DNA of 64,000 nt from Aliivibrio sifiae (GTDB lineage Bacteria > Pseudomonadota > Gammaproteobacteria > Enterobacterales > Vibrionaceae), in assembly GCF_002954715.1 (NCBI RefSeq), contig NZ_MSCP01000001.1:1025453-1089452 (forward strand). Direction: 5' to 3'. Below are positions 1,652 through 61,784 of this stretch, one piece after another. Each line of letters opens with the position of its first letter. Position 1 is the first letter of the stretch. Under the pieces are notes generated by a model. That model did no database searches, was not told the origin of the DNA, and saw only the letters and a program-made list of their open reading frames with translations. The position numbers were made by a program, and so were the translations under genes.

Positions 1652-1715
1652 CTATTGAATTTAACTCGTGAAGTTCACGACTCTAAATCGAATTCAATTA
1701 TTAAGGAATAAAGCC

Positions 1716-2234: not shown

Positions 2235-2260
2235 TCAATTCGCAAACTATTTATAAAAGC

Positions 2261-2281
2261 TAGGGCCTTATTTTGGCCCTA
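2261..2281 (+). terminator. Hairpin between hcp and vgrG (attenuator candidate)
   Basis: TAGGGCC (2261-2267) pairs with GGCCCTA (2275-2281) around a TTATTTT loop, followed by a weak T-run. Its place between hcp and vgrG would allow more hcp than vgrG mRNA, or protect the hcp 3' end. Function is inferred. Confidence 0.55.
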
Positions 2282-2310
2282 TTTGTCGTCATATCTATCA
2301 GGTGTACATA

Positions 2311-5150: not shown

Positions 5151-5165
5151 AGGAGTGTTAACACC

Positions 5166-8981: not shown

Positions 8982-10763
8982 TTAAGCTCTTGTTCCTAAT
9001 GGAATGATCGTCACTTTCTGACCAATATCCACCGATTCGACTTCAGGTTGCACTTCAATTAAGCAGTTTGCTTCGCTCATTGAACGTAAAATACCAGAGC
9101 CTTGTTTACCTGTAGTTACTACTTCCATTTGACCATTTTGGTTAATCGAGTAAATACCACGGCTGTATTCAGTTCGGCCAGTGCGAGAGCGAATAAACTC
9201 TTTAGCAATTGCAGTAAAGGTTTCAGGTTGCCAATTGTCTTCGCCTTGAAGTTTACGTAATGCAGGCTCAACAAATTGTAAAAACGCCACCATTACCGCG
9301 ACAGGGTTGCCCGGTAAACCAAAGAAAGGCGTGTCACCAATATGACCAAAGGCAAGAGGGCGACCGGGACGCATATTAATACGCCAGAAATTAATATTGC
9401 CCAATTTATCTAAGATCGTTTTGATATAATCGGCATCACCAACCGACACACCACCAGAAGATAAGATCATATCTGCTTGTTGTGATGCTTGAGAAAGCGT
9501 TGACTCTAAAGCGGCTTCACTGTCTTCAATGATGCCAAAATCAATCACTTCACAACCGATCTTCTGCAATAATGCCGTCAACGTGAAACGGTTAGAATCA
9601 TAAATTGAATTGGCTTTTTGTGTTTCACCTGGAGCTTGAACTTCATCACCAGTAGAGAATATAGCGACTTTAATTTTATTGAATACAGGAAGAGAGGGGA
9701 TACCAAGTGAAGCAAGCATGCCGACTTCAGGAGCTGTGATACGTGAGCCTTTAGCTACACAGATTTGGTCGATAGCAATATCTTCACCAGCAAGACGAAC
9801 GTTTTGGCCTTTACGAATACCTGATTTACCAGTATCAAAGCGTACTTGGTTACCTTCTTGAATCGCTTGCTCACGCATGATCACCGCATTGCCATTCGCA
9901 GGGACTGGCGCACCTGTCATGATTTTTGCTGCTTCACCATGTTGAAGAGGGTGATCGTAACTGTGTCCTGCCATGATTTCGGCAACCACTGTGTAGTTAT
10001 CACGGTCTAAGTCATCACCACAAATCACATAGCCATCCATTGCTGAATTATTATGCTGAGGAACATTAATCGGCGATAAAATATCTTGAGCCGCTAATGC
10101 ATTAATGGATTCAACTAAAGAGACATTACTTTGTGATTTTAGAGGTGTAATAGCATCTAAAATCTTAGCTCTGCCTTGGCTAACTGATAAAAGCGCAGGA
10201 GATAATTCATCACAATTAGCAGATAAGTCACTTTGTTGTTTATGCTGATGCTGTTTCACGTATTCAACAATGAATGCGGTAATAATATCTGTATCATTGA
10301 TGTCCATTTGAGGTAGATCTGACTCTGCTTTTGAGTCTGACGCAATCGCAATAATGTTGTTATCTTCAGGGAAGATCCAAGGTTTACCCACTTCATCACG
10401 GTGTAATTCAATCTTGGTGTATGGCAGTTGCTTAAAGCCTTCAATAAGAATTAAATCAAGTTCAGTTTGATCCAACTTATTGATTAGCTGCTGACAGGTG
10501 GTTTCTTCATCTGGAGTTTCAGTGATTAATGCATTACGAAAACGAGAGCTAATTAGCATTTGGCTAGCACCGGCTTTACGCAAACGGTAGCTATCTTTGC
10601 CTTCTTGGTCGATATCAAAATTGTGATGAGCGTGTTTGATGACTGCGACTTTTAGTCCCATTTCATTCAGCTTTGGTAATAGCTTTTCTAGTAATGTCGT
10701 TTTACCTGTGCCGCTATAAGCAGCAAAACCCAATAAAGGGATAGACGCAGTCGTTAAGCTCAT
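8982..10763 (-). CDS. moeA: MobB-MoeA fusion: molybdopterin-guanine dinucleotide adaptor / molybdopterin molybdotransferase
   Basis: 593 residues. Residues 1 to about 175 are MobB with P-loop [13 protein letters not shown] and the [10 protein letters not shown] and LILIEGFKQ motifs. Residues from about 190 are MoeA, with [17 protein letters not shown]-like [23 protein letters not shown] and GLPGNPVA. MoeA inserts molybdate (or tungstate) into adenylylated molybdopterin; MobB is a GTP-binding partner of MobA. The fusion would channel cofactor to the bis-MGD stage needed by the formate dehydrogenase at 58291. Its ATG overlaps the mobA stop as ATGA. It is the last gene of the minus-strand operon. 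Such fusions are known in vibrios as I recall. Confidence 0.94.
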
Positions 10764-11344
10764 AATAAAGATCCAAATTGTTCGAGTTCTTGGGGGCTAT
10801 TCAAATTGATAAAAGCATTTGGGTAAGCAGAGAAATCAGCAAAGACGGTATTACACTCTTTGTATAATAGGATGATTTTTCTATCACCGCGCGCTAAGAA
10901 AGCATCAATTTTAGGAATGATACGTTTATGCATTAAAGTGACGACCGGTTGCATGTATTCGCCATCATGAGCGACCACAATATCAGTGTCTTCTTTTACT
11001 GCATCACACAATAAAGAGACAAGGTTGTCAGGTAGATTAGGGGAATCACAAGGAATAAAACCAACCCAATCAGAGTTCATATTGATTAAACCAGAATGCA
11101 TTCCTGCCAATGGGCCTGGGTAATCGTTAAATTGGTCAGAGAAGGTGACACCGTAACTTGAGTATTGTTCGATACTTCGATTAGCGTTGATGGCAATCTG
11201 ATCGGTTTGAGGTGTTAATATGTCTATTGCATGTTCGATAAGAGGTTTGTTTTGAAATGAAACAAAGCCTTTATCTTGGCCACCCATGCGACGGGCTTGT
11301 CCGCCCGCTAAAATTACCCAACTAGTTTGCTTTGGCTGGAGCAT
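10760..11344 (-). CDS. mobA: Molybdenum cofactor guanylyltransferase MobA
   Basis: 194 residues. The nucleotide-binding signature [17 protein letters not shown] opens the protein, and [10 protein letters not shown] contains the metal-binding Asp. MobA joins GMP to molybdopterin to make the guanine dinucleotide form of the cofactor. An upstream in-frame TTG exists at 11362; the ATG at 11344 is chosen because AAGGA lies five bases upstream. The start lies inside the end of tupC (23-base overlap), so it belongs to the same transcript as the tungstate importer. Confidence 0.93.
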
Positions 11345-12029
11345 ACTTATCCTTGCTAACAATCACTTTTAATGGGGTTGATTCTATCAGCTTTGCGTCT
11401 GAAATGGTCCATTGACGATGACAAATTTCAGTCAATGCATTGGTTTGGTGACTAGTAACGACAATGCTAGAACCGCGATCAAGGAGATCTTTGGCCATAA
11501 TTACCAATAAATCGATGGATTCTTGGTCAACACTGGCACTCGGTTCGTCCATTAGCAGTATAGAAGGTTTTAGCACCCAAGCTCTTGCCATAGCCACACG
11601 CTGTTTTTCTCCGCCAGATAAAACAGAAATATGTTCATCAGCTAAGGTTTCTAACCCAACCATACGTAGAGCATTAATCACCATATTACGTTTTTCAAGT
11701 TTATTCATGGTGGTGTATTTCATGCCATAAATAACATTATCGAAAACCGTGCCATCAAATAAAAATGGATTCTGATGTAAATATACGATTTGATTGTTTC
11801 CAGAGCGCCCAAATAAACGAGCCGTCCAGTGTGGTTGATTAAGGTTGAGCTTACCTGCCGTCGGGGTTTGTAAACCAGATAAAATCTTAAGCAGTGTTGT
11901 TTTTCCCACACCATTAGCGCCACGCAAATAGACCGATTCTTTTGGCCCTAATGACAAATGCGGGATGTGGAAAAGTACACGATCATTAAATCGCATCGAT
12001 AGATTATCGGCAGTAATTCTTATTGTCAT
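11322..12029 (-). CDS. tupC: Tungstate ABC transporter ATP-binding protein
   Basis: 235 residues with Walker [10 protein letters not shown], signature LSGGEKQR, Walker [10 protein letters not shown] and the H-loop TSHQ. It powers oxyanion uptake with the permease encoded 12 bases upstream. Assignment to tungstate rather than molybdate comes from the binding protein two genes upstream, which has the TupA-type motif. The 3' end overlaps mobA. C-terminal residues after about 210 are a short extension without the regulatory TOBE domain found in ModC, again fitting Tup. Confidence 0.9.
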
Positions 12030-12041
12030 TTTTTATGCCTA

Positions 12042-12740
12042 CTAAGTACGTAAATACCCTTTACCACGAGTGATAGAGAGTAAAAAATTTAACACTAGCG
12101 CTAAGATTAATAACACCATGCCAAGAGCAATCCCTTGAGCAAATGCGCCTTTTTGGCTTTCCATAGCAATTGCGGTTGGAATGTTTCGTGTAGCATTAAA
12201 GATGTTACCGCCGACCATCATAGAACAACCAACCTCGGTAATGATCCGAGAAAATCCAGCAATAACGGCGGCTAGGATAGGGAATCGAGTTTCCCAAATT
12301 AAGCTGCCAAAAGCACGAGGCAATGACGCACCTAAGGTAAATGCGGTTTCCCATACTCGGCGATCACTGTGTTGAAATGCACCATGCATCATAGCAACCA
12401 TGATAGGGAAGCAGATAAACATTTGGCCAATGACCATTGCTTCTTGCGTAAATAGTAACTGCCAATCTCCCAGAGGTCCTGAGCGAGAAAGCATCATATA
12501 CAACAATAAACCGATAACGACGGTAGGTACTGATTGTAATGTATTAATAATAGAGAGCAGTAGCCACCGCCCAGGAAACGAGCCATATGCAAGCGCAAAA
12601 GCCAGCAATAATGCAGGGAGTAATACAACCGCCATTGCAAACAATGATACTGAGAACGAAACACCTACGATGCTCCATAATGCTGTATCACCACTGAACA
12701 GTAATTGAATTGCTTCGTGAGAGGTGGCTAATATACTCAT
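12042..12740 (-). CDS. tupB: Tungstate ABC transporter permease
   Basis: 232 residues with five or six hydrophobic helices and the EAA-like loop (WETAFTLGASLPRAFGSLIW) that contacts the ATPase. The segment RIITEVGCSMMVGGNIFNAT is characteristic of TupB/WtpB-type permeases. Three bases separate it from tupA. It acts in the inner membrane as a homodimer with TupC. Confidence 0.92.
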   Translation of the reverse strand: MSILATSHEAIQLLFSGDTALWSIVGVSFSVSLFAMAVVLLPALLLAFALAYGSFPGRWLLLSIINTLQSVPTVVIGLLLYMMLSRSGPLGDWQLLFTQEAMVIGQMFICFPIMVAMMHGAFQHSDRRVWETAFTLGASLPRAFGSLIWETRFPILAAVIAGFSRIITEVGCSMMVGGNIFNATRNIPTAIAMESQKGAFAQGIALGMVLLILALVLNFLLSITRGKGYLRT

Positions 12741-12743
12741 GAA

Positions 12744-13565
12744 TTATTTAGCGTCCGCAGTAAATAGTTGTTTACCGCTTAGTTTAAAGCTATTGATCAT
12801 TGCTTGGCCTTTATCGCTAACTAACCAATCACTAAACACTTGCGCACCTTTGGTGTTTAAGTTGTTGTAACGTTCAGGGTTGATTAGGATTACTTGGTAT
12901 GGGTTAAATAGACGCTTATCGCCTTCAACCATTATCTCAAGATCCAATTTGTTTTGGTAAGCTAACCATGTACCACGGTCTGTTAGTGTGTAAGCTTGCA
13001 GTTCAGAGGTCATGTTTAGTGTTGGTCCCATGCCTTGACCTACCGCTTTGTAGCCACCGAAATTAGGTTCGATCTTAGTTTGAGCCCAAAGATTCAATTC
13101 TTTTTTGTTTGTGCCAGAGTCATCACCACGAGAAACGAAAGTCACATCGGTTTCTGCCATTTTTTTGAATGCAGCAGTAACATCTTTCATACCATGAATA
13201 TGTGCAGGATCAGCTTTAGGGCCAACAAGTACAAAGTCATTGTACATTAATGATTTTGGTTCAATACCATAACCTTTTTCAACAAAGTCAGCTTCGGCTT
13301 TAGGTGCGTGAGTCATTACTAAATCAACATCACCGTTTTCGCCCATTTTAAGAGCTTTACCAGTGCCTGCTGCAAGCACTTGAACTTCGTAACCTGAATC
13401 TTTTTTAAACTCAGGCAATAAATAATCTAATAAACCTGAGTGGTAAGTACTCGTTGTTGTTGCCAGACGGATGGTGCTTGCGTCATCTGCATATACGTTC
13501 GTAGCAGAAAAAGAACCAAGAGCCAGTGTAGCCATAACTGAAAATGTACTGATTTTATTGTTCAT
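12744..13565 (-). CDS. tupA: Tungstate-binding periplasmic protein
   Basis: 273 residues. A signal peptide ends near residue 26 (VYADDAS). The mature start has TTTS (residues 36-39), the oxyanion-binding motif conserved in TupA, and later SRGDDSGTNKKE, which also lines the ligand site in this family. It captures tungstate in the periplasm for TupBC. It is the first gene of tupABC-mobA-mobB/moeA. The leader carries a sigma-54 promoter on the minus strand at 13650-13635 and lies opposite the NtrC-type regulator gene. Confidence 0.93.
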   Translation of the reverse strand: MNNKISTFSVMATLALGSFSATNVYADDASTIRLATTTSTYHSGLLDYLLPEFKKDSGYEVQVLAAGTGKALKMGENGDVDLVMTHAPKAEADFVEKGYGIEPKSLMYNDFVLVGPKADPAHIHGMKDVTAAFKKMAETDVTFVSRGDDSGTNKKELNLWAQTKIEPNFGGYKAVGQGMGPTLNMTSELQAYTLTDRGTWLAYQNKLDLEIMVEGDKRLFNPYQVILINPERYNNLNTKGAQVFSDWLVSDKGQAMINSFKLSGKQLFTADAK

Positions 13566-13634
13566 GTTATATCCATGTAATGAAAGGTAATATCGTAAGT
13601 AAATGTCTCAAACGAATAGACTCATTGCCATTAA

Positions 13635-13650
13635 AGCAATCACTATGCCA
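13635..13650 (-). promoter_or_regulatory. Sigma-54 promoter of tupABC-mobA-moeA
   Basis: Read on the minus strand: TGGCATAGTGATTGCT, with GG at 13649-13648 and GC at 13637-13636, spacing 12. Predicted start near 13624, about 59 bases before tupA. The palindromes at 13743-13810 lie about 95-160 bases upstream, the usual distance for enhancer sites of NtrC-type activators. Confidence 0.7.
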
Positions 13651-13742
13651 AAATTTGTATTGATGCTTTTATCTATAAAGTAATGATATATAAGCAATTG
13701 AATGGCATTCTGACATAAAAACCTTACAAAAAATGTGACTAG

Positions 13743-13753
13743 GACAAAATGTC
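13743..13753. promoter_or_regulatory. Candidate activator site 1 (GACAAAATGTC)
   Basis: Palindromic GACA-AAA-TGTC, preceded by GG-like context (AGGACAAAATGTCT). The same 11-mer occurs at 55544-55554 upstream of the fdh promoter. Proposed binding site for the regulator encoded at 13849. Confidence 0.55.
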
Positions 13754-13766
13754 TCATGAGAAAGGA

Positions 13767-13777
13767 TACATTTTGTA
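13767..13777. promoter_or_regulatory. Candidate activator site 2 (TACATTTTGTA)
   Basis: Same ACATTTTGT core with changed outer bases, 24 bases after site 1. Weaker match than its neighbours. Confidence 0.4.
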
Positions 13778-13799
13778 GAATACAGGTTAGAATAATTAG

Positions 13800-13810
13800 G
13801 ACATTTTGAC
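13800..13810. promoter_or_regulatory. Candidate activator site 3 (GACATTTTGAC)
   Basis: GGACATTTTGACC is nearly identical to GGACATTTTGAACC at 55523-55536 in front of the fdh operon. It lies 39 bases before the regulator ATG, so it could also mediate autoregulation. Confidence 0.5.
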
Positions 13811-13848
13811 CCACAAATCCCTGTCAGTACTCTTAATTAGGAAACATT

Positions 13849-15267
13849 ATGGTCGCGAAATCAGATTGGCACGCATTTTCAGTTCTTGTTGTTGATGATG
13901 AAATAGGTATGCAAACCATACTTAAAAAAGCATTAAGTAAACAATTCGGTCAAGTTCATACCGCAGGAACAATTGAAGATGCAGAAGTGATCCGCCAATC
14001 TCATCATCTTGATCTTATTATTTTAGACATTAATTTACCGGGTCAAACAGGGTTAGAGTGGCAAGAAAGTATTGCTAGCGATTCTCGTAATTATGATGTG
14101 ATATTCATGACAGGGTACGCAGAATTAGATACTGCGATTCAAGCGCTTCGTTTAGGAGCTGCCGATTTTATACTAAAACCATTTAATTTAGAAAACATGC
14201 TACAAGCAGTAAGACGCTGTATGGATCGTCGTCTTGTTGAGCGAACCAATTTTGCGCTGCAAAGGGAAATCGAAAAAAATAATCCAATAGAAATCATTGG
14301 TAATGCAGATAAAACCTTACAACTAAAGCAAATGGTAGCTCAACTCGCGCCATCAAATGCCGCGGTTCTAATTGAAGGTGAATCTGGCACAGGTAAAGAA
14401 TTGGTTGCGCGTGGTTTACATCAATTAAGTAATCGAAATGGACCATTTGTGCCATTAAACTGTGGTGCTATTGCCCCAGATCTTTTAGAAAGTGAATTAT
14501 TTGGTCATACATCAGGGGCTTTTACTGGTGCGAAAAAAGGGCGAGAAGGGCTATTTAGAGTTGCAAATAATGGTACCTTATTTTTAGATGAAATTGGTGA
14601 AATGCCAATTGGGATGCAATCGTCGCTACTTCGAGCTTTAGAGCAAAAAGCCATTCGCCCTGTAGGTTCAGAAAAAGAGATCCCAGTGGATGTACGTATT
14701 GTTGCTGCAACAAATCGAAACTTGCTTGAAGAAGTTGAAAAAGGCAATTTTAGAAAAGATCTTTTTTACCGCTTAAATGTATTAACCGTTTCTTTGCCTG
14801 CATTGCGTGAACGTAAAGCCGATTTAGCGTGTTTAACCGAGCATTTCTCGCACATGATAGCCAAAGAAATGGGATTAAAACCTATTCACTGGGCACATGA
14901 AGATATAGTGGCTATGAGTCATTACGATTGGCCGGGTAATATTCGCGAACTCAAAAATATGATTGAGCGCTGTATTCTATTAGGAAAACCACCCGTTGAT
15001 CACTGGTCTGGATTGCAAGGTAACACTCCTCTGCATCAAGAAACCGCATTTGACGTTGCAATAGAGCAAAAAGAAACAGAGTGCAGCTGTATGCCTGAAA
15101 TGGATGTTTACCCAGAGCATTGGACATTAAAAGAAGTAGAAAAAAAGCACATTATCACGGTTGTTGATTTGCATGATGGCAATAAATCAGCAGCAGCAAG
15201 ACAGCTTGGCGTTGCTCGTAAAACGTTAGAGAGAAAGTTTAAAGAGTGGAGTGAAGAGAGCGCATGA
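13849..15267 (+). CDS. NtrC-family sigma-54-dependent response regulator
   Basis: 472 residues. The receiver domain (1-125) has the acidic pair VVDDE and phospho-acceptor Asp60 (ILDINLPGQTG). The AAA+ domain (about 150-390) has Walker A GESGTGKE (near 177), the sigma-54-contacting loop GAFTGA (near 223) and GTLFLDEIGEMP. A Fis-type helix-turn-helix closes the protein (NKSAAARQLGVARKTLERKF). It should activate -24/-12 promoters when phosphorylated by the kinase encoded next, whose start overlaps as ATGA. It diverges from the tup operon. I infer that its targets are tup, fdhD and the fdh operons, from shared sites. AGGAAA precedes the ATG. Confidence 0.95.
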   Translation: MVAKSDWHAFSVLVVDDEIGMQTILKKALSKQFGQVHTAGTIEDAEVIRQSHHLDLIILDINLPGQTGLEWQESIASDSRNYDVIFMTGYAELDTAIQALRLGAADFILKPFNLENMLQAVRRCMDRRLVERTNFALQREIEKNNPIEIIGNADKTLQLKQMVAQLAPSNAAVLIEGESGTGKELVARGLHQLSNRNGPFVPLNCGAIAPDLLESELFGHTSGAFTGAKKGREGLFRVANNGTLFLDEIGEMPIGMQSSLLRALEQKAIRPVGSEKEIPVDVRIVAATNRNLLEEVEKGNFRKDLFYRLNVLTVSLPALRERKADLACLTEHFSHMIAKEMGLKPIHWAHEDIVAMSHYDWPGNIRELKNMIERCILLGKPPVDHWSGLQGNTPLHQETAFDVAIEQKETECSCMPEMDVYPEHWTLKEVEKKHIITVVDLHDGNKSAAARQLGVARKTLERKFKEWSEESA

Positions 15268-17306
15268 TGTTATCTCCTCTTTTATGGAAACGCAGAATAA
15301 AAACCATGGTGAGATATCGTTTACTATGGTTAAACTCGGTTCCTTTATTTTTAACTTTACTTGCTCTAGTCATTATTACGGCATTTTGGTCTGTGCACTA
15401 TACGTGGCAAAACGCACTTAATGATGTCGGAAGTAAATTATCAGTAGCAGAAAATAGCATTGATTTTTTACAGCAAGAGCAAGGCGCAGAGCTTCGTAGC
15501 TTTGTTGAGTCATATCAGTTTCAAACAAGATTGAGAAATCATGATCCTGACCTTCAATATTGGGCTGAACATCAAGCTGACAACTATAATTCTGATTTTA
15601 TTGTTGTTCATCCGGTTGATTACAGTCATCACCTTCCTACCTCATTAGTTAAGGCCTTGTCATTAGGGATCTCTCGTACCTTTTTTCAAGTGATGACGAA
15701 CGAGGACTTAAAGAATATTAGTCCAGAATTAAGCACTCAAGTCCAAGTTATCAATAAAGAAGACGGCAGCATTGAAAAACGTGGTTTGGTCAGTAGAACA
15801 TTAATTCCAATTTTTGATAAAGAAGGGAATTTAGCTTGGATAGTTGATAGCGGTATTATTCTTAATAATAGTACTCTCTTGGTCGATAGGATCCGAGATC
15901 TTATTTACCCAGAAGGCGATTTACCCGCAGATAATTACGGTACCGTTACTCTGTTTTTAGATGATTTACGTATTAGTACTAATGTTCCGTTACATAATGA
16001 TTTTGCTAATAAATCTCTTAATCAAGGACGAGCAATAGGGACCATCGTTTCACCAGAAGTTAAAAAAATAGTGGTTGAAAATGGGGAGCGTTGGACTAAC
16101 CGAGCTTATGTTTACAACGATTGGTATATCTCTGCGTATCAGCCAATAAAAGACATGGATGATAAAGTCATAGGCATGTTGTATACCGGATATTTAGAGT
16201 GGCCGTTACTTAAGCAATACTTGCAGAATTTAGTGGAAGCAGGGGTAACAATACTCATCACTCTATTATTATCGACTATTTTTGTGCATCGTGGAGCAAG
16301 AGATCTTTTTCAACCAATTGAAAAAATTCATTATGTGGTTAAGTCAGTTCAGCTTGGAAAAGAAGGACGAATCGGTGATTTAGGATTAGATAACGGGCAC
16401 GAATTAGCAAGTCTTGCACAGCAATTTGATAATATGTTGGATCAATTGCAACAGCGAAACATAGAGATCCAAAGTGCTTCTAAAGAATTAGAGTCAAAAG
16501 TAGAGTCTCGAACTGCCAGTTTACATGAAAAAACGATTGAACTTGAGCAATACATTAAATTATTAAAACAAGCGCAAGATAAGCTTGTTATGAGTGAAAA
16601 GCTGGCGTCTTTGGGTGAGCTAACCGCAGGTATAGCCCACGAGATCAATAATCCAACCGCAGTAATACTCGGTAATGCAGAGCTAATTAAGTATGAATTA
16701 GGCGATGATGCTCATGCCATTTCTGAAGAACTCGATGCGATAATGGAGCAGATTGACCGCATTCGTAATATCACCCGCAGTTTATTGCAATACAGTCGAC
16801 AGGGTGGCATTCAAGATGAGGTGACGTGGCAATACATCAATCCGATTATTGAAGAGAGCGTCACTTTAGTTCGAACTGGTTCACATAAGCGTGATATTGA
16901 AGTGGAGTTTGATTTTGAGCAACCGCCAAAAGTTGAAGTAAATCGACATCATTTACTGCAAGTTTTAGTTAATTTACAAATGAATGGCATTCATGCAATG
17001 AGCAGCAAAGGTAAGTTAATTATTCGTAGTAGAACTTGGTATGAAGAAGAGATTGAGCTTGGTGCAATTATTGAGATTGAAGACTTTGGCACTGGAATAA
17101 ATGCAGAGCAATTGAATCGAATATTTGATCCGTTTTACACGACTAAGCGTGACGGAACAGGACTTGGACTTTCGGTGTCTCAAAGTTTGCTCAGTCAAAC
17201 GGGTGGGGAGATAAAAGCACGCTCACAGGTCGGAGAAGGGTCTACATTTATTATTTATTTACCGACAAAATCTGAACATCACCAGTACGATAATTTGGTT
17301 GGTTAA
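15264..17306 (+). CDS. Membrane sensor histidine kinase, partner of the NtrC-type regulator
   Basis: 680 residues. TM1 (about 20-43), a periplasmic Cache-like sensor of about 280 residues, TM2 (about 323-345), a HAMP-like linker, and a coiled coil. The HisKA domain carries GIAHEINNP with phospho-acceptor His459. The ATPase domain has DFGTGI, FYTTKRDGTGLGLS and GEGSTF. It begins within the stop of the regulator gene (ATGA), so the two form one unit. The ligand is not known; from the proposed regulon, candidates are formate, a respiratory signal, or an oxyanion. The class resembles other NtrB/DctB-like kinases that pair with sigma-54 activators. Confidence 0.93.
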   Translation: MMLSPLLWKRRIKTMVRYRLLWLNSVPLFLTLLALVIITAFWSVHYTWQNALNDVGSKLSVAENSIDFLQQEQGAELRSFVESYQFQTRLRNHDPDLQYWAEHQADNYNSDFIVVHPVDYSHHLPTSLVKALSLGISRTFFQVMTNEDLKNISPELSTQVQVINKEDGSIEKRGLVSRTLIPIFDKEGNLAWIVDSGIILNNSTLLVDRIRDLIYPEGDLPADNYGTVTLFLDDLRISTNVPLHNDFANKSLNQGRAIGTIVSPEVKKIVVENGERWTNRAYVYNDWYISAYQPIKDMDDKVIGMLYTGYLEWPLLKQYLQNLVEAGVTILITLLLSTIFVHRGARDLFQPIEKIHYVVKSVQLGKEGRIGDLGLDNGHELASLAQQFDNMLDQLQQRNIEIQSASKELESKVESRTASLHEKTIELEQYIKLLKQAQDKLVMSEKLASLGELTAGIAHEINNPTAVILGNAELIKYELGDDAHAISEELDAIMEQIDRIRNITRSLLQYSRQGGIQDEVTWQYINPIIEESVTLVRTGSHKRDIEVEFDFEQPPKVEVNRHHLLQVLVNLQMNGIHAMSSKGKLIIRSRTWYEEEIELGAIIEIEDFGTGINAEQLNRIFDPFYTTKRDGTGLGLSVSQSLLSQTGGEIKARSQVGEGSTFIIYLPTKSEHHQYDNLVG

Positions 17307-21492: not shown

Positions 21493-21507
21493 AACAGACC
21501 TTTTATT

Positions 21508-53412: not shown

Positions 53413-53526
53413 TTAGGGACTAGGAACGAGTAAAAGATTTTCTTAAGAGCTAGCTCTAAGCTATAGGGATGAGTAATTGCTTTTCGCTCTTACTCGTCCC
53501 TGTTTTTCTTAGGACCTAGTCCCTAA
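53413..53526. repeat. Palindromic intergenic element
   Basis: TTAGGGACTAGG (53413-53424) and CCTAGTCCCTAA (53515-53526) are perfect 12-base inverted ends; the right end runs into the 3' end of fdhD. Inside are a perfect palindrome AGAGCTAGCTCT (53446-53457) and the terminator hairpin at 53466-53507. The nested symmetry suggests a mobile palindromic unit that now serves as a terminator. Confidence 0.55.
53466..53507 (+). terminator. Terminator of the HD-GYP gene
   Basis: GGGATGAGTAA (53466-53476) pairs with TTACTCGTCCC (53490-53500), one mismatch, followed by TGTTTTTC. Confidence 0.7.
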
Positions 53527-54355
53527 GAACTGTTTCACCTTTCACATCAAAATTGATTTTTTCATGGCCAGCAAACACTTGGAAACGCTTACCTTTAGCG
53601 CGAGCAATAATAGTAATACCAAATTTCTGAGCTAAGTCTAAGCCCATTTGCGTTACGCCAGAGCGAGAAAGCAGAACAGGAATCCCCATTTGAGCAACTT
53701 TAATAACCATCTCAGAGGTTAAACGACCTGTCGTATAAAACAGTTTATTGTCGCCCGTACCACGGTTTAGCCATAACTCACCCGCAAGCGTATCAACCGC
53801 ATTATGGCGACCTACATCTTCCACAAAAGAAAGCACTTGGTTGTTTTCACAAATGGCACAACCATGAACTGCACCAGCTGCTTTATAGGTGTCGTTATGG
53901 TAGGTCAGTGCTTCTAGTGATTCATAGAGATCAGATTGATTAATTGTAATTTGAGGTACTTGGTAATTCTCAAGTTGCTTCATTACGTTGCCATACATGG
54001 TGCCTTGACCACAGCCAGAGGTTACTGTTTTTTTCTTCAAGTTCTCTTTTACGTGTTCCGTCGTTTCTTTAGTGTTAACGGCTGCTGTTTTTGTTTCCCA
54101 ATCAATCATGATTGATTCTAATAGTGTTACATCGCTAATAAAATGTTGGTTTTTTAAATATCCTAATACTAACTCAGCGGGACGAGCACCTAGCGTCATT
54201 AGAGTGACCACTTCTTGCCAATTCAACATCACCGTTAATGGTTGTTCGCAGGCGACTTCTTTTGTTAGCTTCTCACCGTATTCATCATAAACATCCACAG
54301 TAAGGGTTTGTTTAGGTACAGCGCCAGTAGTTATTATTCTTGGTGATTGGCTCAA
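53516..54355 (-). CDS. fdhD: Formate dehydrogenase sulfurtransferase FdhD
   Basis: 279 residues. FdhD moves sulfur from a cysteine desulfurase to the molybdenum/tungsten cofactor, needed for formate dehydrogenase activity. Markers: AAVHGCAICENNQVLSFVED then VGRHNAVDTLAGE, YTTGRLTSEMV and SRSGVTQMGLDLA. A Cys lies in TVTSGCGQG. A longer frame starts at TTG 54367; TTG 54355 is preferred because GGAG lies six bases upstream. It diverges from the DUF3305 gene, and a sigma-54 promoter lies at 54416-54401. Confidence 0.92.
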   Translation of the reverse strand: MSQSPRIITTGAVPKQTLTVDVYDEYGEKLTKEVACEQPLTVMLNWQEVVTLMTLGARPAELVLGYLKNQHFISDVTLLESIMIDWETKTAAVNTKETTEHVKENLKKKTVTSGCGQGTMYGNVMKQLENYQVPQITINQSDLYESLEALTYHNDTYKAAGAVHGCAICENNQVLSFVEDVGRHNAVDTLAGELWLNRGTGDNKLFYTTGRLTSEMVIKVAQMGIPVLLSRSGVTQMGLDLAQKFGITIIARAKGKRFQVFAGHEKINFDVKGETVLRD

Positions 54356-54400
54356 AGTAAGCTCCAAATTAATGAGATTTAAGGTAATTAATTATATACA

Positions 54401-54416
54401 CGCAAATTTTATACCA
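54401..54416 (-). promoter_or_regulatory. Sigma-54 promoter of fdhD
   Basis: On the minus strand TGGTATAAAATTTGCG, GG at 54415-54414 and GC at 54403-54402, spacing 12. Predicted start near 54390, about 35 bases before the preferred fdhD start. Confidence 0.6.
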
Positions 54417-54509: not shown

Positions 54510-54971
54510 GTGGATCAAAAAACAGAAAATCAATGGCCGCTTCAGTTTGAAGTGATTGAAGAAACCAAGCAAGTAGGTCGCTGGAGTGCTCCTTCATGGC
54601 ATATTGGTGATATTCATTTATATGAAAAAATATCAGAAACCGCACAAAGTAATGCTATTTTATTTGAACGTGAGTTAGAGATTTTCCGTGATGAACGAAC
54701 CGATTATCGTTTCAATTTAAGCTCTCAAGATCCTAAGTTATTTTTTGCATTTGAAAATGACAACGATGTTCTAACGCCAGTCATGATTACAGCGTCTCAA
54801 AGTGTAATTGGACAATATATGGATGGAGACTACGTTGTATTGTCTATTGGAATGCCATTGCCAATGCAAGCATGGTTAGAAGCCTATATTGGTAAACACG
54901 GTGAACTGATTGAAGTTCGTAGAAAGAAACGCAAAGGTGCGGGGCGCGCAAGTGAGCAACTTCCTAAGTAG
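54510..54971 (+). CDS. DUF3305 formate dehydrogenase-cluster protein
   Basis: 153 residues from GTG 54510 with GAAGGG upstream. Sequence such as FEVIEETKQVGRWSAPSWHI, FERELEIFRDERTDYRFNLS and the final KRKGAGRASEQL fits DUF3305, whose genes occur in fdh clusters of proteobacteria. No signal peptide or cofactor motif. An accessory part in assembly or redox of formate dehydrogenase is inferred. Its end overlaps the next gene by 20 bases. Confidence 0.85.
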   Translation: MDQKTENQWPLQFEVIEETKQVGRWSAPSWHIGDIHLYEKISETAQSNAILFERELEIFRDERTDYRFNLSSQDPKLFFAFENDNDVLTPVMITASQSVIGQYMDGDYVVLSIGMPLPMQAWLEAYIGKHGELIEVRRKKRKGAGRASEQLPK

Positions 54972-55515
54972 ATGGTCATTAAGAAAAAGAAAAGTTCAAC
55001 AAGGTGAAGAAGTTAGTGATGAGAAAACCGTAGAACCTATTGAGAGCGGTGAGTACCTCGACGATCTGACAGACGTTAATGATTCTGTTGAACATTCTGG
55101 TGAAACTTCTACAGAAGCAGTAGAGGCGTTAGAAGAGCGTGTTGAGCTTCCCACCGAAGATGATCTTGGTGATATTACAGGTACAAGTAATGTGAGCCAA
55201 TTTATGGCAGTAGGCGTAGATAAAAATCTGAAAAAAGCCGCATTAAGAAAGATGTTTTTAAATCCAGAATTTGCGATGGAAGATGAACCTAACTACTCAA
55301 CACCACCAAAGTTAGATTCAGAAACCGCAGCTAAATTAAGAGATTGGATGGTTGAGCCAGTAGAAGAAGATGAGAGTGAATTAGAGCCTGAATTATCAAC
55401 GGAAGACCCCATCATAAATATAGACAATAATAGCGCACTTAATGGGAATGATAATGAATATCAATGCGTTACGGGCGATAAAGAACAAGAAAGTGAGACA
55501 AAAAAGACCATCTAA
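54952..55515 (+). CDS. DUF3306 formate dehydrogenase-cluster protein
   Basis: 187 residues from GTG 54952 (GGGG upstream; family start NFLSRWSLRKRK). The frame itself extends to 54910. After the basic N-terminus the protein is very acidic (VEPVEEDESELEPELS), with a short helix AALRKMFLNPEFAMEDE that is conserved in DUF3306. It is probably largely unstructured and may bridge partners. Coupled with DUF3305 by overlap. Confidence 0.85.
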   Translation: MSNFLSRWSLRKRKVQQGEEVSDEKTVEPIESGEYLDDLTDVNDSVEHSGETSTEAVEALEERVELPTEDDLGDITGTSNVSQFMAVGVDKNLKKAALRKMFLNPEFAMEDEPNYSTPPKLDSETAAKLRDWMVEPVEEDESELEPELSTEDPIINIDNNSALNGNDNEYQCVTGDKEQESETKKTI

Positions 55516-55521
55516 CCAATA

Positions 55522-55652: not shown

Positions 55653-55718
55653 ATATAACACCTAGAAACCAGTCATAGAACTGAATAGGCCCGAATGGGG
55701 TTAAGAATAGGTGAAGCA

Positions 55719-57383
55719 ATGTTATCTCAATTTTTAGCACAATCTGAAACAACAAATGCCAAAGCGCGTCAGTTTGCTATTACGCAAACCGTAGAGCTGA
55801 ACAACTTGATCCCACCAACAGTAAGCTATGAAAGCCGTGGCAACCTCGTTATTATTGGACCTACTCGCATCATTGTTGATGTTGCTGAACAATTTACTGA
55901 TTTAAACAGCATCACGCTTGTCTCTACCGAATCAGAAAACCAAGCTCATGAGTCAGCTCGTACGGTCTACTTTGCCAAAGAGTTATCTGTAAAAGGCTTT
56001 TTAGGTGCATTTGATATCGAATGTGTTGTGAATGGCGAAAAAGTAAACCTAGCGAAAGTCACCATTGGTGCAACAGCATTCGATTTAGTGCTGGATATGA
56101 AGCTAGACAGTGTAATGACAGAGCAAGTACCAGTCCCTGGTTATTACCCAGTCGGTCGTGGCTATCCTACGCTTGCACAAGTGCTTGATGAGTTACCCGA
56201 TCTTGTTGGTACGTTTGATAAACCAAAATATTTCCGTTTAAACCCTGATTTATGTGCCCATAGTTCTCGTGGCGTAAAAGGGTGTGAACGTTGTGTTGAT
56301 GCTTGTCCTGCTGGTGCATTAACCAGTGAAGGCACTGCAGAAAGCGGTCATCATATTCAAATTAACCCCTACCTTTGTCAAGGTGTTGGTACATGTTCAA
56401 CGGCTTGTCCAACAGAAGCCATCAGCTATGCATTGCCAGAAGCCGAAAAAACACAAAATTTTGCAGCTCGTTTACTAACAAACTATAGAAAAGAAGGTGG
56501 CGAGACTCCAATTATCGCTTTCTGTAGTGATCGTCATGAAAATTTCAATGTTATGGCGCTAAAAACGATGCCTGATCATGTTATTCCTGTCGTACTTGAT
56601 GAAATTTTATCTGTTGGTATCGACACATGGTTCTCTACATTAGTGAATGGTGCTGCTCAGGTTTTGTTTATCGCAAGCCGCAGAATGCCAGAAACGATTC
56701 AACGAGTATTAACTCAAGAAGTTGAAATCGCACAGGCGTTCTTAACGCAACTTGGTCTTGAACCGGAACGTGTGCAAGTTGTGTACATGGAAGCCCTAAA
56801 TGAAATGACGTTAATTGATACGCCATTATCAATTATTGATGGTCAATTAACAGGTAACAAGCGCGAACGCTTAATGGGCGCATTGGATCATTTAGCTGCA
56901 AACAACATTGAAATCACTGAAATTCAAACTATGCCATCTCACGCACCTTACGGCACTATTGATTGCGAAACTAAAGATTGTACGTTGTGCATGGGTTGTG
57001 TCGCAGTATGTCCAACGCGTGCATTACACAGTGATCCAGATTCACCTACATTGAAATTTATCGAGCAAGATTGTGTTCAATGTGGCTTGTGTGTGAATGC
57101 GTGTCCAGAAAAAGCATTAAGCATGAAAGTGCAGATGAACTGGAACCAAGAACAACGCCAAGAAACACAAATAATGCATAAAGAAGACGCAGCATGCTGT
57201 CTAACGTGCGGCAAACCATTTGCCCCTGCATCAATGATTGAAATGCTAAGAACGAAGTTACAAGGTAACCCTCACTTTAGCGATGAAGCCTCAATTAACC
57301 GCTTATACATGTGTGAAGACTGTCGTGTAAAAGACATCTTTGTCGACTTATCAGCAAACCCAGAAAAACAATTAAAGGTCTAA
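55719..57383 (+). CDS. Multi-cluster 4Fe-4S ferredoxin-like protein of the fdh cluster
   Basis: 554 residues from ATG 55719 (AGGTGA upstream; another ATG at 55695 lacks a good site). Four ferredoxin-like Cys motifs occur: CERCVDACPAGAL, CQGVGTCSTACPTEAI, CTLCMGCVAVCPTRAL and CVQCGLCVNACPEKAL. Extra Cys pairs lie near the C-terminus (CCLTCGKPF, CEDCRV). It is soluble and cytoplasmic, probably moving electrons to or from the formate dehydrogenase or helping its assembly. It is the first gene of the long operon with torD, TAT, fdhA, fdhB and fdhC. Confidence 0.9.
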   Translation: MLSQFLAQSETTNAKARQFAITQTVELNNLIPPTVSYESRGNLVIIGPTRIIVDVAEQFTDLNSITLVSTESENQAHESARTVYFAKELSVKGFLGAFDIECVVNGEKVNLAKVTIGATAFDLVLDMKLDSVMTEQVPVPGYYPVGRGYPTLAQVLDELPDLVGTFDKPKYFRLNPDLCAHSSRGVKGCERCVDACPAGALTSEGTAESGHHIQINPYLCQGVGTCSTACPTEAISYALPEAEKTQNFAARLLTNYRKEGGETPIIAFCSDRHENFNVMALKTMPDHVIPVVLDEILSVGIDTWFSTLVNGAAQVLFIASRRMPETIQRVLTQEVEIAQAFLTQLGLEPERVQVVYMEALNEMTLIDTPLSIIDGQLTGNKRERLMGALDHLAANNIEITEIQTMPSHAPYGTIDCETKDCTLCMGCVAVCPTRALHSDPDSPTLKFIEQDCVQCGLCVNACPEKALSMKVQMNWNQEQRQETQIMHKEDAACCLTCGKPFAPASMIEMLRTKLQGNPHFSDEASINRLYMCEDCRVKDIFVDLSANPEKQLKV

Positions 57384-57387
57384 TACC

Positions 57388-57999
57388 ATGAATGAACAAC
57401 ATCAGATCCGACAAGAAATTTATGGCTTATTAGCACATTTATTCCGTTCAGCACCAGAGCAAGCATTGGTTGACTGGCTAATTACTATTGAAACGGAAGA
57501 GAGTGACACTCATGGCATGAGCCAAGCGTGGAACCAATTGGTTAAAGCGGCTGAGAAATCAAGCACAGAAGCAACATTAGAAAAATTAGAAGACGAATAC
57601 CAAAATTTATTTATTGGTATCGGCCGTGGTGAAGTCATGCCGTTTGGTTCATGGCATGTAGCTGGTGCTTTAATGGAAAAACCATTAGTCGCACTTCGCC
57701 AAGATCTAATGCAATTAGGTTTTGAGCGAGCAGAAGACGTAAAAGAACCAGAAGATCATATTTCAGCATTATGTGAAGTAATGGCTATGCTTATTGAGGC
57801 GGGTGATGCAGAAGTGCTGCAACAACGTTTCTTTAATCGTCACATTCAACCTTGGTATGTCTCACTGTGCGAGCAAATCAATAACGCAGAAAATGCAGAT
57901 TTCTACAAATCAGTGGCGTGCCTAGCCGAAGCGTTCTTTAGTGTAGAACAAACACGCTTTGCAAAAAATCCAAACGCAATTGAAGTCACAGAAGTATAA
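57388..57999 (+). CDS. TorD-family chaperone
   Basis: 203 residues, all helical, with the TorD-family motif EPEDHISALCEVM and FGSWHVAGALMEKP. Such chaperones bind the twin-arginine signal of molybdo- or tungsto-enzymes until the cofactor is in place. It most likely serves FdhA at 58291. It begins four bases after the ferredoxin gene. Confidence 0.92.
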   Translation: MNEQHQIRQEIYGLLAHLFRSAPEQALVDWLITIETEESDTHGMSQAWNQLVKAAEKSSTEATLEKLEDEYQNLFIGIGRGEVMPFGSWHVAGALMEKPLVALRQDLMQLGFERAEDVKEPEDHISALCEVMAMLIEAGDAEVLQQRFFNRHIQPWYVSLCEQINNAENADFYKSVACLAEAFFSVEQTRFAKNPNAIEVTEV

Positions 58000-58077: not shown

Positions 58078-58278
58078 ATGAGCAATAACAAAACGGACCT
58101 AAACCGCCGAAATATACTGAAGGGCCTTGCAACTGCTGCTGCCGCAGGAACAGTAGCTGCTGCGGTTTCAGGAACAGCAAACGCAACACCATCAGTAACT
58201 GCTGAAAAAAGCGTTGAGAAAAAAGGCGATGGATATCGTGAAACTCAACATATTCGTGATTATTACGACAGCCTATAA
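58078..58278 (+). CDS. Small twin-arginine signal protein of the fdh region
   Basis: 66 residues. The N-terminus LNRRNILKGLATAAAAGTVA has a twin-arginine signal, followed by a short charged tail ending TQHIRDYYDSL. It matches the small formate dehydrogenase region TAT proteins found just before fdhA. It is likely exported and may bind the periplasmic enzyme. AAAGGAG precedes the ATG, and fdhA starts 12 bases after the stop. Confidence 0.88.
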   Translation: MSNNKTDLNRRNILKGLATAAAAGTVAAAVSGTANATPSVTAEKSVEKKGDGYRETQHIRDYYDSL

Positions 58279-58290
58279 CGGAGCATAATA

Positions 58291-61146
58291 ATGAAACTGA
58301 CTAAACGTTCCGATTCGGTACAAAAACAAGAAAACCAACTGGGCATTACTCGTCGTATGTTCATGCGTACCTCAACTATTGCCGCTGGTGCAGTAGCAAG
58401 CGCAAGCATGTTTGTTCCAAGCATGATGAGAAAAGCACAAGCACAGGAAGTGCCAGTCGATGCGCCAACAGAAGTGAAACGTACTATTTGTTCACACTGT
58501 TCTGTAGGTTGTGGTATTTACGCTGAAGTTCAAAATGGTGTGTGGACAGGTCAAGAACCTGCATTTGATCACCCATTTAACGCAGGTGGTCACTGTGCAA
58601 AAGGCGCAGCACTGCGTGAGCACGGCCATGGCGAACGTCGTCTAAAATACCCAATGAAGCTTGAAAACGGTAAGTGGAAAAAACTGTCTTGGGATCAAGC
58701 GATCGAAGAGATTGGTAACAAAACACTTGAGATCCGTAAAGAGTCTGGACCTGATTCAGTGTACTGGCTAGGTTCTGCTAAGCACAATAACGAACAAGCG
58801 TATTTGTACCGTAAAATGGCCTCATTATGGGGCACAAATAACGTCGATCACCAAGCACGTATTTGTCACTCAACTACAGTAGCCGGTGTTGCAAACACAT
58901 GGGGTTACGGTGCGATGACCAACTCGTTCAATGATATGCATAACTGTAAATCTATGCTATTCATTGGTTCAAATCCAGCAGAAGCTCACCCAGTAGCAAT
59001 GCAACATATTCTGATCGCAAAAGAGAAGAATGGTTGTAAGATCGTTGTTGCCGACCCACGTCGTACGCGTACAGCAGCAAAAGCAGATCACTATGTTTCA
59101 TTGCGTCCGGGTTCAGACGTTGCCTTCATTTGGGGCGTATTGTTCCACGTTTTTGCTAACAAATGGGAAGATCAAGAATTCATTAACCAACGTGTGTTTG
59201 GTATGGATGAGATCCGCACAGAAGTTGCAAAATGGAACCCAGCAGAAGTTGAACGCGTAACAGGCGTTACAGAAGCTGAAGTATATGAAACTGCAAAACT
59301 GCTTTCAGAAAATCGTCCAGGTTGTGTTGTTTGGTGTATGGGGGGTACTCAACATACAACAGGTAACAACAACACACGTGCATACTGTGTATTAGAACTT
59401 GCTCTTGGCAACATGGGTAAATCTGGTGGTGGCGCAAACATCTTCCGTGGTCACGATAATGTACAAGGCGCAACGGATTTAGGTGTTCTTTCAGATACGC
59501 TTCCTGGTTACTACGGTGTTGGTGAAGGCGCATGGAAACACTGGTCAAAAGTGTGGGATCTTGATTACGGATGGGTTCAAAACCGATTCGACCAAGGTAA
59601 ATACAATGGCAAAACGCCAATGAATAACTTTGGTATTCCAGTATCTCGTTGGGTTGATGGTGTTTTAGAAGACAAAGCAAACATCGAGCAAAACGATAAT
59701 ATCCGTGCAATGTTTTACTGGGGTCATGCAGTAAACTCACAAACACGTGGTACTGAGATCAGAAAAGCAATGAGCAAGTTGGATATGATGGTAATCGTCG
59801 ACCCATACCCAACCGTTGCAGCAGTAATGAACGATCGTACCGATGGCGTATACCTTCTTCCTGCGACAACGCAGTTTGAAACGCACGGCTCTGTAACGGC
59901 ATCAAACCGTTCATTCCAATGGCGTGAGCAAGTAATTCAACCATTGTTTGAATCAAAACCAGATCACGAGATCATGTACCTATTGACTAAAAAGCTGGGT
60001 TACTCAGATCAATTGTTCAAAAACATCAAAATTGATGAGAACAACCAACCTGTCATTGAAGACATTACTCGTGAATTCAACAAAGGTATGTGGACAATTG
60101 GTTACACAGGTCAAAGCCCAGAGCGTATTAAAGCGCATACACAAAACTGGCACACGTTCCACAAAACAACGCTAGAAGCAGAAGGCGGCCCAGTTAATGG
60201 CGAAACCTATGGTCTTCCTTGGCCTTGTTGGGGCACGCCAGAAATGAAGCACCCAGGTACGCACATTCTTTATGATACGTCTAAACCTGTAGCGGAAGGT
60301 GGCGGTAACTTCCGTACTCGTTTTGGTGTGGAATTTGAAGGCGAAAGCTTACTTGCAGAAGACAGCTATCCAGTAGGCTGTGAAATTGAAGACGGTCATC
60401 CAGAATTTACAGACAAACTGCTTAAGCAACTTGGCTGGTGGGACGACCTGACTGCGGCTGAAAAAGTAGCAGCAGAAGGTAAAAACTGGAAAACTGACTT
60501 ATCTGGCGGTATTCAACGTGTTGCAATTAAACACGGTTGTATGCCATTTGGTAATGCAAAAGCACGTGCGATTGTATGGACGTTCCCTGACCGTGTTCCA
60601 CAACACCGTGAGCCGTTATACACACCACGTCGTGATTTAGTTGCTGATTATCCAACATGGGATGACCGCGCGGCTAACTTCCGTATTCCAACGTTGTACA
60701 AAACAATTCAAGACCAAGACAAGTCAAAAGAATACCCAATTATTCTGACTTCTGGTCGTCTGGTTGAGTATGAAGGTGGTGGTGAAGAAACGCGTTCAAA
60801 TCCATGGCTTGCAGAGCTTCAACAAGAAATGTTTGTCGAAGTTAACCCGAAAGACGCAAACGACATCGGCTTTAAAGACGGTGATATGGTTTGGGTTGAA
60901 GGCGCAGAGAAAGGGCGAATTCACGTTAAAGCAATGGTGACACGTCGTGTTAAACCGGGCTTAGCGTTCGTACCATTCCACTTTGGCGGTAAATTCCAAG
61001 GTGAAGACTTAACGACTAAGTACCCAGAAGGTACGGTTCCATACGTTATTGGCGAAGCAGCAAACACAGCAACCACTTATGGTTATGATCCTGTAACACA
61101 AATGCAGGAAACCAAAGTGACACTATGTAAAATCACGAAAGCGTAA
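58291..61146 (+). CDS. fdhA: Formate dehydrogenase catalytic subunit (Mo/W-bis-MGD)
   Basis: 951 residues. A TAT signal (TRRMFMRTSTIAAGAVASAS) is followed by the 4Fe-4S motif TICSHCSVGCG with a fourth Cys in GGHCAKGAAL. The metal ligand is Cys192 (QARICHSTTVAG, codon TGT), so this is the cysteine and not the selenocysteine form, followed by catalytic His193. The C-terminal dinucleotide-binding domain is present (ILTSGRLVEYEGGGEETRSN). It oxidises formate in the periplasm. Cotranscription with fdhB and a cytochrome b gene points to respiratory electron transfer. The tup link suggests tungsten use, unproven. Confidence 0.95.
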   Translation: MKLTKRSDSVQKQENQLGITRRMFMRTSTIAAGAVASASMFVPSMMRKAQAQEVPVDAPTEVKRTICSHCSVGCGIYAEVQNGVWTGQEPAFDHPFNAGGHCAKGAALREHGHGERRLKYPMKLENGKWKKLSWDQAIEEIGNKTLEIRKESGPDSVYWLGSAKHNNEQAYLYRKMASLWGTNNVDHQARICHSTTVAGVANTWGYGAMTNSFNDMHNCKSMLFIGSNPAEAHPVAMQHILIAKEKNGCKIVVADPRRTRTAAKADHYVSLRPGSDVAFIWGVLFHVFANKWEDQEFINQRVFGMDEIRTEVAKWNPAEVERVTGVTEAEVYETAKLLSENRPGCVVWCMGGTQHTTGNNNTRAYCVLELALGNMGKSGGGANIFRGHDNVQGATDLGVLSDTLPGYYGVGEGAWKHWSKVWDLDYGWVQNRFDQGKYNGKTPMNNFGIPVSRWVDGVLEDKANIEQNDNIRAMFYWGHAVNSQTRGTEIRKAMSKLDMMVIVDPYPTVAAVMNDRTDGVYLLPATTQFETHGSVTASNRSFQWREQVIQPLFESKPDHEIMYLLTKKLGYSDQLFKNIKIDENNQPVIEDITREFNKGMWTIGYTGQSPERIKAHTQNWHTFHKTTLEAEGGPVNGETYGLPWPCWGTPEMKHPGTHILYDTSKPVAEGGGNFRTRFGVEFEGESLLAEDSYPVGCEIEDGHPEFTDKLLKQLGWWDDLTAAEKVAAEGKNWKTDLSGGIQRVAIKHGCMPFGNAKARAIVWTFPDRVPQHREPLYTPRRDLVADYPTWDDRAANFRIPTLYKTIQDQDKSKEYPIILTSGRLVEYEGGGEETRSNPWLAELQQEMFVEVNPKDANDIGFKDGDMVWVEGAEKGRIHVKAMVTRRVKPGLAFVPFHFGGKFQGEDLTTKYPEGTVPYVIGEAANTATTYGYDPVTQMQETKVTLCKITKA

Positions 61147-61768: not shown

Positions 61769-61784
61769 TCCAGTGGAGAGAGTG

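Follow-up and report, generated by a model that had tools for sequence, protein, structure and literature searches.

The 64,000-nucleotide stretch of the Aliivibrio sifiae genome analyzed here (hereafter the window), which is part of contig 1 of a 4.74-Mb genome, carries a sensor kinase and an NtrC-type response regulator next to genes for tungstate uptake and, about 40–45 kb away, the genes for a formate dehydrogenase. An earlier note on this DNA had described the pair as divergent from tupABC-mobA-mobB/moeA, which agrees with the gene coordinates, strands and domains found here, and had proposed that it ties metal uptake, cofactor assembly and the enzyme into one sigma-54-dependent regulon. 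Among the named loci used for comparison, the closest relative of the kinase was that of Aliivibrio sifiae (96% identical). The features of the tup locus are listed below, where PWM denotes the score with a position weight matrix for the dyad and bits the score against the family model named.

8982..10763, minus strand: MobB-MoeA fusion (metal insertion); NF011060, 998 bits, above cut-off
10760..11362, minus strand: mobA; TIGR02665, above cut-off
11322..12029, minus strand: tupC ATPase, an ABC ATPase adjoining tupB and named by position
12042..12740, minus strand: tupB permease; NCBIfam TupB, 164 bits (cut-off 320); ABC_perm1 above cut-off
12744..13565, minus strand: tupA, tungstate-binding protein; TupA is the sole NCBIfam match, 255 bits (cut-off 400)
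13636-13650, minus strand: sigma-54 -24/-12 element of the tup operon, TGGCATAGTGATTGC; strict-pattern match
13740..13756, plus strand: putative enhancer dyad 1, upstream of tupA, TAGGACAAAATGTCTCA; PWM 22.4
13764..13780, plus strand: weak third dyad in the tupA-regulator interval; PWM 8.1
13797..13813, plus strand: putative enhancer dyad 2, near the regulator start; PWM 19.9
13849..15267, plus strand: NtrC-family response regulator with receiver, AAA+ and Fis-type helix-turn-helix domains (Pfam Response_reg, Sigma54_activat, HTH_8)
15264..17306, plus strand: sensor histidine kinase with a periplasmic Cache domain (sCache_3_3 at 200-319, HisKA, HATPase_c)

The five genes from tupA to the mobB/moeA fusion form a tightly packed operon, divergent from the regulator-kinase pair. 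Relatives of TupA in the PDB are 3muq, 5my5 and 3lr1, the last of which is named as tungstate-binding. The regulator appears intact, with the receiver aspartate D60, a Walker A motif at 177, GAFTGA at 223 and a Walker B motif at 244; in the kinase, the histidine H459 was identified, and both genes overlap, as expected for a single operon. This combination of receiver, GAFTGA-bearing AAA+ domain and Fis-type helix-turn-helix, encoded together with a HisKA/HATPase kinase, places the pair within the NtrC family, as do targets with -24/-12 elements and upstream dyads, with the qualification that fdhD and the DUF3305 gene mostly lack a dyad of their own in Vibrionaceae. It falls short of the equivalog model of the nitrogen regulator NtrC (TIGR01818), with 377.6 bits against a cut-off of 558.6. 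Among the best 25 of 113 NCBIfam models none reached its cut-off for the regulator, the top one being AtoC with 382 of 714 bits, and a PDB sequence search at E values up to 1 gave nothing for the sensor domain of the kinase.

The genes and elements of the fdh locus are as follows.

53516..54367, minus strand: fdhD (PF02634)
54402-54416, minus strand: sigma-54 element of fdhD; strict-pattern match
54445-54459, plus strand: sigma-54 element of the DUF3305-DUF3306 genes; strict-pattern match
54510..55515, plus strand: DUF3305 and DUF3306 genes (PF11749, PF11748)
55521-55537 and 55541-55557, plus strand: putative enhancer dyad pair upstream of the Fe-S/fdh operon; PWM 15.4 and 21.6
55637-55651, plus strand: sigma-54 element of the Fe-S/fdh operon, TGGTACGGTTATTGC; strict-pattern match
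55695..57999, plus strand: polyferredoxin and TorD-like formate dehydrogenase chaperone, the role of the latter being taken from its family and from the names given to VP1511/VC1515
58078..58278, plus strand: small protein of twin-arginine translocation (Tat) type, read in the sequence
58291..61146, plus strand: FdhA, Cys-type formate dehydrogenase; TIGR01591, 480 bits (cut-off 666)
61160..62801, plus strand: FdhB and cytochrome b subunit (NF038355 FDH3_beta above cut-off; PF01292)

FdhA aligned over its full length (1-951) with PDB entry 9vap (1585 bits) and carries ICHSTT at 191, so that both this relation and the cysteine ligand assign it to the SoFdhAB-type tungsten formate dehydrogenases. 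According to the available passages of the respective publications, 9VAP, the closest solved structure, is the Cys-tungsten enzyme of Shewanella oneidensis (PMC13397495), and the tungsten formate dehydrogenase of Methylorubrum extorquens needs mobB, moeA1 and fdhD (PMC13197769). FdhA of A. sifiae thus probably holds tungsten, and the case for tungstate is based on more than the name of a transporter. The small Tat-type protein would be the positional counterpart of VP1512. At the fdhA position of Vibrio cholerae, VC1513 is tabulated as a pseudogene (PMC5816637, in the part available).

With regard to the promoters, the earlier note had placed sigma-54-like elements before tup, fdhD, the DUF3305 gene and the ferredoxin-fdh operon. 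All four were recovered among the 28 matches of the strict pattern TGGYAYRNNNNTTGC in the 4.74-Mb genome, in which the reversed control gave 20. Conservation was then assessed in related regions, that is, in 80 loci kept of 170 found plus the window, each region being used only if its bounding genes were found; L041 and L109 were dropped from the tup regions, and loci with too short a 10-kb flank from the fdh regions. Tolerating one mismatch and keeping GG and GC fixed, an element on the correct strand was present ahead of tupA in 79/79 regions, ahead of DUF3305 in 40/42 and ahead of the Fe-S gene in 30/34, and an fdhD-directed element in 33/42.

A dyad with the consensus TGNGACAAAATGTCNCA lies upstream of both tupA and the Fe-S/fdh operon. 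The claim of a palindrome shared by both loci held for the exact core GACAAAATGTC, found at 13743 and 55544, but did not extend to the interval between fdhD and DUF3305, where the PWM detected no dyad in the window. The genome-wide search that had been suggested yielded exactly four copies of the core, two of them at the expected loci, whereas looser copies were not enriched (77 with up to one mismatch in the A. sifiae genome versus 114 for the reversed 11-base core). Neither of the other two exact copies was retained as a target, as one lies inside an open reading frame and the other has no sigma-54 match in the surrounding 3.5 kb. A 12-mer search of the window with two mismatches gave 10 sites, with 6.9 expected, which is no clear excess. 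It is the position and conservation of the dyad, rather than the number of looser matches, that go beyond chance.

This conservation was pronounced in the related regions. Allowing one mismatch, the core occurred in 78/79 tupA-regulator regions (shuffled regions, 9/1580) and in 31/34 Fe-S regions (shuffled, 4/680), and the reversed core in none of either set. Of the 34 Fe-S regions, 31 scored above the 99.9% shuffle level with a PWM built from tup sites alone. At least two sites above the 99% level were present in 50/79 tup and 24/34 Fe-S regions, the commonest spacing between neighbors being 45 bp at tup (35/59) and 34 bp at Fe-S (10/30). At tupA, the center of the best dyad was located 80–226 bp upstream of the -12 element (median 112, 79 regions), mostly 80–150 bp; at the Fe-S gene, this distance was 91–113 bp (median 92, the 27 regions with both features). 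Such distances are typical of sigma-54 enhancers. At the fdh locus, dyads were found at one place only, approximately 1.1 kb from the fdhD and DUF3305 promoters, which they probably drive from this distance. Dyad 2 might serve autoregulation of the regulator gene.

The distribution of these features was examined in 121 genomes of the family. The kinase was found in 89 genomes, each with a single match at an E value of at most 1e-60, fdhA in 90 and tupA in 92; all three were present in 88 genomes and none in 29. The 17-mer TGRGACAAAATGTCNCA with up to one mismatch gave 168 sites in 92 of the 121 genomes (reversed control, 31 sites). It occurred in 88 of the 89 kinase-bearing genomes, exactly twice in 66, once in 17 and three times in 5, and was missing from 28 of the 32 genomes without kinase. 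The single copies in the other four (G038, G073, G076 and G096) were taken as chance because the reversed control alone yields 31 sites. Among the 150 matches listed, 133 were at the two expected places: 71 at 161–401 bp upstream of tupA and 62 at 2.7–3.6 kb upstream of fdhA, where the loci that were read have the Fe-S promoter. Closer reading of the 17 remaining listed matches showed 4 of tup or fdh type, 6 inside the tup operon and 7 elsewhere. The four reassigned matches belong to G041 and G067, with longer spacers, to G086, at a contig end, and to G078, where the site is upstream of the kinase on a contig apart from tupA and was placed by coordinates only.

The six dyad-like 17-mers of the tup operon, about 3.3–3.8 kb inside it, were excluded from the targets; they fall inside moeA in G008, G075, G112 and G020, and those of G098 and G037 were placed by distance only. 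Dyad-like 17-mers with one or two mismatches were also seen in the moeA coding sequence of five loci (L115-L119), one of which (L115) is without the regulator pair; either a coding constraint or a further site may underlie them. At another locus, L147, a regulator pair near fdhA was considered as a second candidate and discarded, since by-eye recognition of its sequence suggested GlnL/GlnG beside glnA, and a dyad-like site there was taken as chance.

Several genomes departed from the common pattern. In G086 no fdhA match was obtained; this is probably an assembly gap, as the contig stops just beyond a dyad of the fdh type and fdhD and DUF3305 are present. G030 and G011 have kept tup, fdhD and fdh and lost the regulator-kinase pair. 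In the 19 kb fetched, no dyad was found with up to two mismatches, nor was a sigma-54 element, at the same tolerance, found upstream of tup, fdhD, DUF3305 or the Fe-S gene. In these two genomes, which represent two genera (L113, L114), fdhD stands directly ahead of tupA on the same strand, in what looks like a fused operon.

This joint loss bears on an explanation in which the pair controls tungstate uptake only and another sigma-54 activator serves fdh and its dyad. In its favor, the available passages assign the S. oneidensis sigma-54 regulator SO_4718 to tungstate (molybdate) transport (PMC2667191) and name SO_4717 a tungstate-responsive kinase (PMC5148205). However, the same dyad is present at both loci and it tracks the kinase rather than fdh, as G011 and G030 illustrate with fdh but neither kinase nor dyad, and we regard this explanation as improbable.

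Control of both loci by one pair also agrees with data from relatives, in which RpoN dependence and co-expression have been shown by others; the publications in question are cited from the parts available. Deletion of rpoN in Vibrio parahaemolyticus lowered VP1510-VP1515 by log2 values of -3.2 to -4.8, VP1508 by -1.84 and VP1501 by -1.45, and VP1501, VP1508 and VP1510 are marked as RpoN peaks from V. cholerae chromatin immunoprecipitation (ChIP) (Dong and Mekalanos 2012, via PMC9817140). The printed VP1501 element matches the tupA element exactly in eight loci, and the VP1508 element is the same as the one before DUF3305 in V. diabolicus, which suggests that VP1501 and VP1508 are the tupA and DUF3305 orthologues, respectively; the printed VP1510 element is one base off the Fe-S element of four loci. 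In V. cholerae, tup and fdh change jointly (PMC5816637), and in two data sets of S. oneidensis the fdh genes change together with tupA, and in one of them also with tupB (PMC5826389, PMC2535785). The statement in the earlier note that the V. cholerae homologues sit side by side agrees with published tables, which give fdh as VC1510-1518, the regulator as VC1522, the divergent gene as VC1523 and the permease as VC1524 (PMC5816637, PMC4441509, PMC6855506).

Such joint changes might also arise if the dyad were the site of a regulator with a general role in anaerobiosis, iron or metals, the sigma-54 pair being a bystander. In published data, again available in part, fdh and tup respond jointly to Fur/RyhB and riboflavin perturbations, and an AphA ChIP peak is located at VC1522/VC1523. 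A general regulator would nevertheless have many sites, in contrast to the concentration of the listed matches at two loci, and neither the narrow range of distances between the Fe-S dyad and the -12 element in the 27 regions measured nor the absence of the dyad from most kinase-less genomes fits it, so that this explanation is rated below the previous one.

In a wider search of the order (295 genomes, E up to 1e-100), the kinase was detected in 52, 19 of them in the family of the window and 33 in three other families. Ten of these 33 (f2) are Moritella-like by comparison with named loci, and 12 of the remaining 23 were inspected closely. In the Shewanella-like group g18 the tup-regulator-kinase and fdh loci were apart in all eight genomes: at opposite contig ends in five single-contig genomes (roughly 0.2–0.4 Mb if circular) and on separate contigs in three. 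A sigma-54 element was nonetheless found ahead of tupA in 8/8 and ahead of DUF3305 in 8/8, and a tup dyad within three mismatches of the 17-mer in 8/8. The fdh dyad of this group precedes DUF3305 and not the Fe-S gene; it was found in 8/8 genomes with a shorter, looser 14-mer and in 6/8 with the 17-mer, and for the 14-mer it is the position that counts, not the number, because the reversed control was nearly as frequent. The three genomes of g47 had dyads at both loci, one of them without an Fe-S element. The recognition helix of the regulator reads LGVARKTLERK in 13 compared loci (Vibrionaceae, Moritella and g47, give or take one residue outside the helix) and LGVSRKTLDRK in eight loci of g18 and g40, and most, not all, g18 dyads have a different center (AAATT); this parallel is suggestive only. 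As far as sequence comparison goes, the same regulator-tup-fdh arrangement is thus kept in several related families. The least probable explanation, co-inheritance of a linked block devoid of any regulatory link between tup and fdh, draws on the fact that tupA and fdhA are within 20 kb in 55 of the 84 genomes with both on one contig, but dyad and sigma-54 elements persist at about 45 kb separation in A. sifiae and in the Shewanella-like genomes with distant loci.

Taken with the observed gene identities, conserved elements, co-occurrence and joint loss, these data favor a single switch, in which one pair jointly turns on tungsten uptake, tungsten-cofactor synthesis and a tungsten formate dehydrogenase through sigma-54 and a shared dyad; we assign it a probability of roughly 0.87. 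The one regulon for uptake, cofactor and enzyme put forward in the earlier note is hence supported by co-occurrence, dyad specificity, joint loss, persistence of the elements when the loci are apart and the published rpoN and co-expression data.

A number of observations weigh against this single switch. Even with one mismatch allowed, the core was found in only 5/42 fdhD-DUF3305 regions (shuffled, 4/840; reversed, 0), and the tup-derived PWM passed the 99% and 99.9% shuffle levels in 1/42 and the 95% level in 9/42 of them. G003 has the kinase and no 17-mer within one mismatch. G022 has tup only and an almost intact tupA element, the pair and the intergenic dyad being gone. G041 and G067 retain the regulator, the tup-side dyad, the fdh elements and weaker fdh-side dyads, but their kinase is without a Cache domain and a search for the tupA element was negative. 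G149 (g40) has the pair, tup and fdh, with weak dyads only and no clear sigma-54 element at tupA or fdh, and in g18 Fe-S elements and fdhD elements were each limited to 4/8 genomes. Relatedness among the genomes inflates the counts, so that those in the family are not independent events. TupA, TupB and FdhA all score under the NCBIfam equivalog cut-offs. As for published work, no shift of the VP1510 promoter was seen with purified RpoN alone in electrophoretic mobility shift assays, and the authors concluded that the effect on fdh is indirect (PMC9817140, in the part available); an absent shift with purified RpoN is compatible with binding as holoenzyme. No binding or regulator-mutant data were found in the literature searched.

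In the proposed mechanism, the kinase would sense a periplasmic cue through its Cache domain and phosphorylate the regulator, which is predicted to bind the GACAAAATGTC dyads upstream of the -12 elements of tupA and Fe-S/fdh and, once phosphorylated, would remodel sigma-54 polymerase at the expense of ATP, thereby firing the tupA and fdh promoters. The dyads at Fe-S/fdh may also serve the fdhD and DUF3305 promoters from a distance. Tungstate would then enter by TupABC, MobB/MoeA and MobA would make the tungsten-bis-molybdopterin guanine dinucleotide cofactor, FdhD would sulfurate it, and FdhA would be matured into a membrane-bound tungsten formate dehydrogenase with its chaperone and electron-transfer partners. 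Concerning the cue, we infer that formate, or the fermentative or respiratory state, is likelier than tungstate, because an uptake system that needed its own metal as signal would fail when that metal is scarce. That SO_4718 is one of nine regulators induced under anaerobic iron-reducing conditions (PMC2667191, in the part available) fits a respiratory cue, whereas the printed name of SO_4717 points toward tungstate. More tentatively, the system could be a switch for a single tungsten enzyme, with the Cache domain reading formate or a product of formate respiration, the fdh array driving promoters up to 1.1 kb away and its twin driving tungstate uptake; the fdh array would have moved, from the Fe-S gene in Vibrionaceae to DUF3305 in Shewanella-like genomes, and kept the same operons. 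The Cache-less kinase orthologues of G041 and G067 (L150, L151), in genomes of 3.6–3.7 Mb, possibly belong to a signal-blind system.

An NtrC-type pair acting with sigma-54 and upstream dyads is a well-known kind of system. NtrB/NtrC, ZraSR and AtoSC have in common with the A. sifiae pair the domain order, GAFTGA, -24/-12 promoters and upstream dyads, and differ from it in dyad, sensor and targets. E. coli FhlA, which controls the formate hydrogenlyase regulon, is a one-component regulator with formate as its cytoplasmic ligand; it resembles the A. sifiae system in placing a formate dehydrogenase under sigma-54 control, but the latter uses two components, has its Cache sensor in the periplasm and would include tungstate uptake in the regulon. 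TunR and ModE-type proteins are one-component metal-binding factors that regulate tup or mod transport, and no such factor is encoded among the five tup-operon genes of A. sifiae. Tungsten uptake and insertion genes are likewise clustered in M. extorquens (moeA1-mobB-tupBCA), for which the available passages describe no sigma-54 switch (PMC13197769). A further known counterpart is SO_4717/SO_4718 of S. oneidensis with tupAB (SO_4719-4720), whose gene numbers fit the tup-regulator-kinase order of g18; the available passages give annotation only and do not name fdh as a target.

As to the earlier statement that the regulon is undescribed, no description of a joint regulon, its operator or the activator assignment was found in the open literature, in a search that covered few subscription journals and part of the longest result lists; sigma-54 control of fdh and the tungstate-transport annotation of the S. 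oneidensis regulator were, however, already known. What is new is the putative shared enhancer, its assignment to the pair and the single joint regulon. These would supply an activator and an operator for fdh genes known to be RpoN-dependent in vibrios, explain why tungstate uptake moves jointly with fdh, and make VP1501 and VP1508, called hypothetical in the RpoN data, members of the regulon. They also predict that marine vibrios and shewanellas make a tungsten, not a molybdenum, formate dehydrogenase on demand.

Some further features were observed in the neighborhood. In S. oneidensis, the small RNA RyhB is encoded beside the kinase orthologue, at SO_4716-SO_4717 (PMC5826389, in the part available); an Rfam scan of the A. 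sifiae window gave nothing at gathering scores, RyhB included. The window also contains an unrelated second two-component pair, PhoQ/PhoP-like by appearance, at 20128-22164. At 1668-7658, Hcp/VgrG-like genes are followed by one for a LysM-containing protein of 830 amino acids, in what appears to be a type VI secretion cluster, and at 51275-53392 solute-binding-like domains are joined to what looks like an HD-GYP C-terminus.

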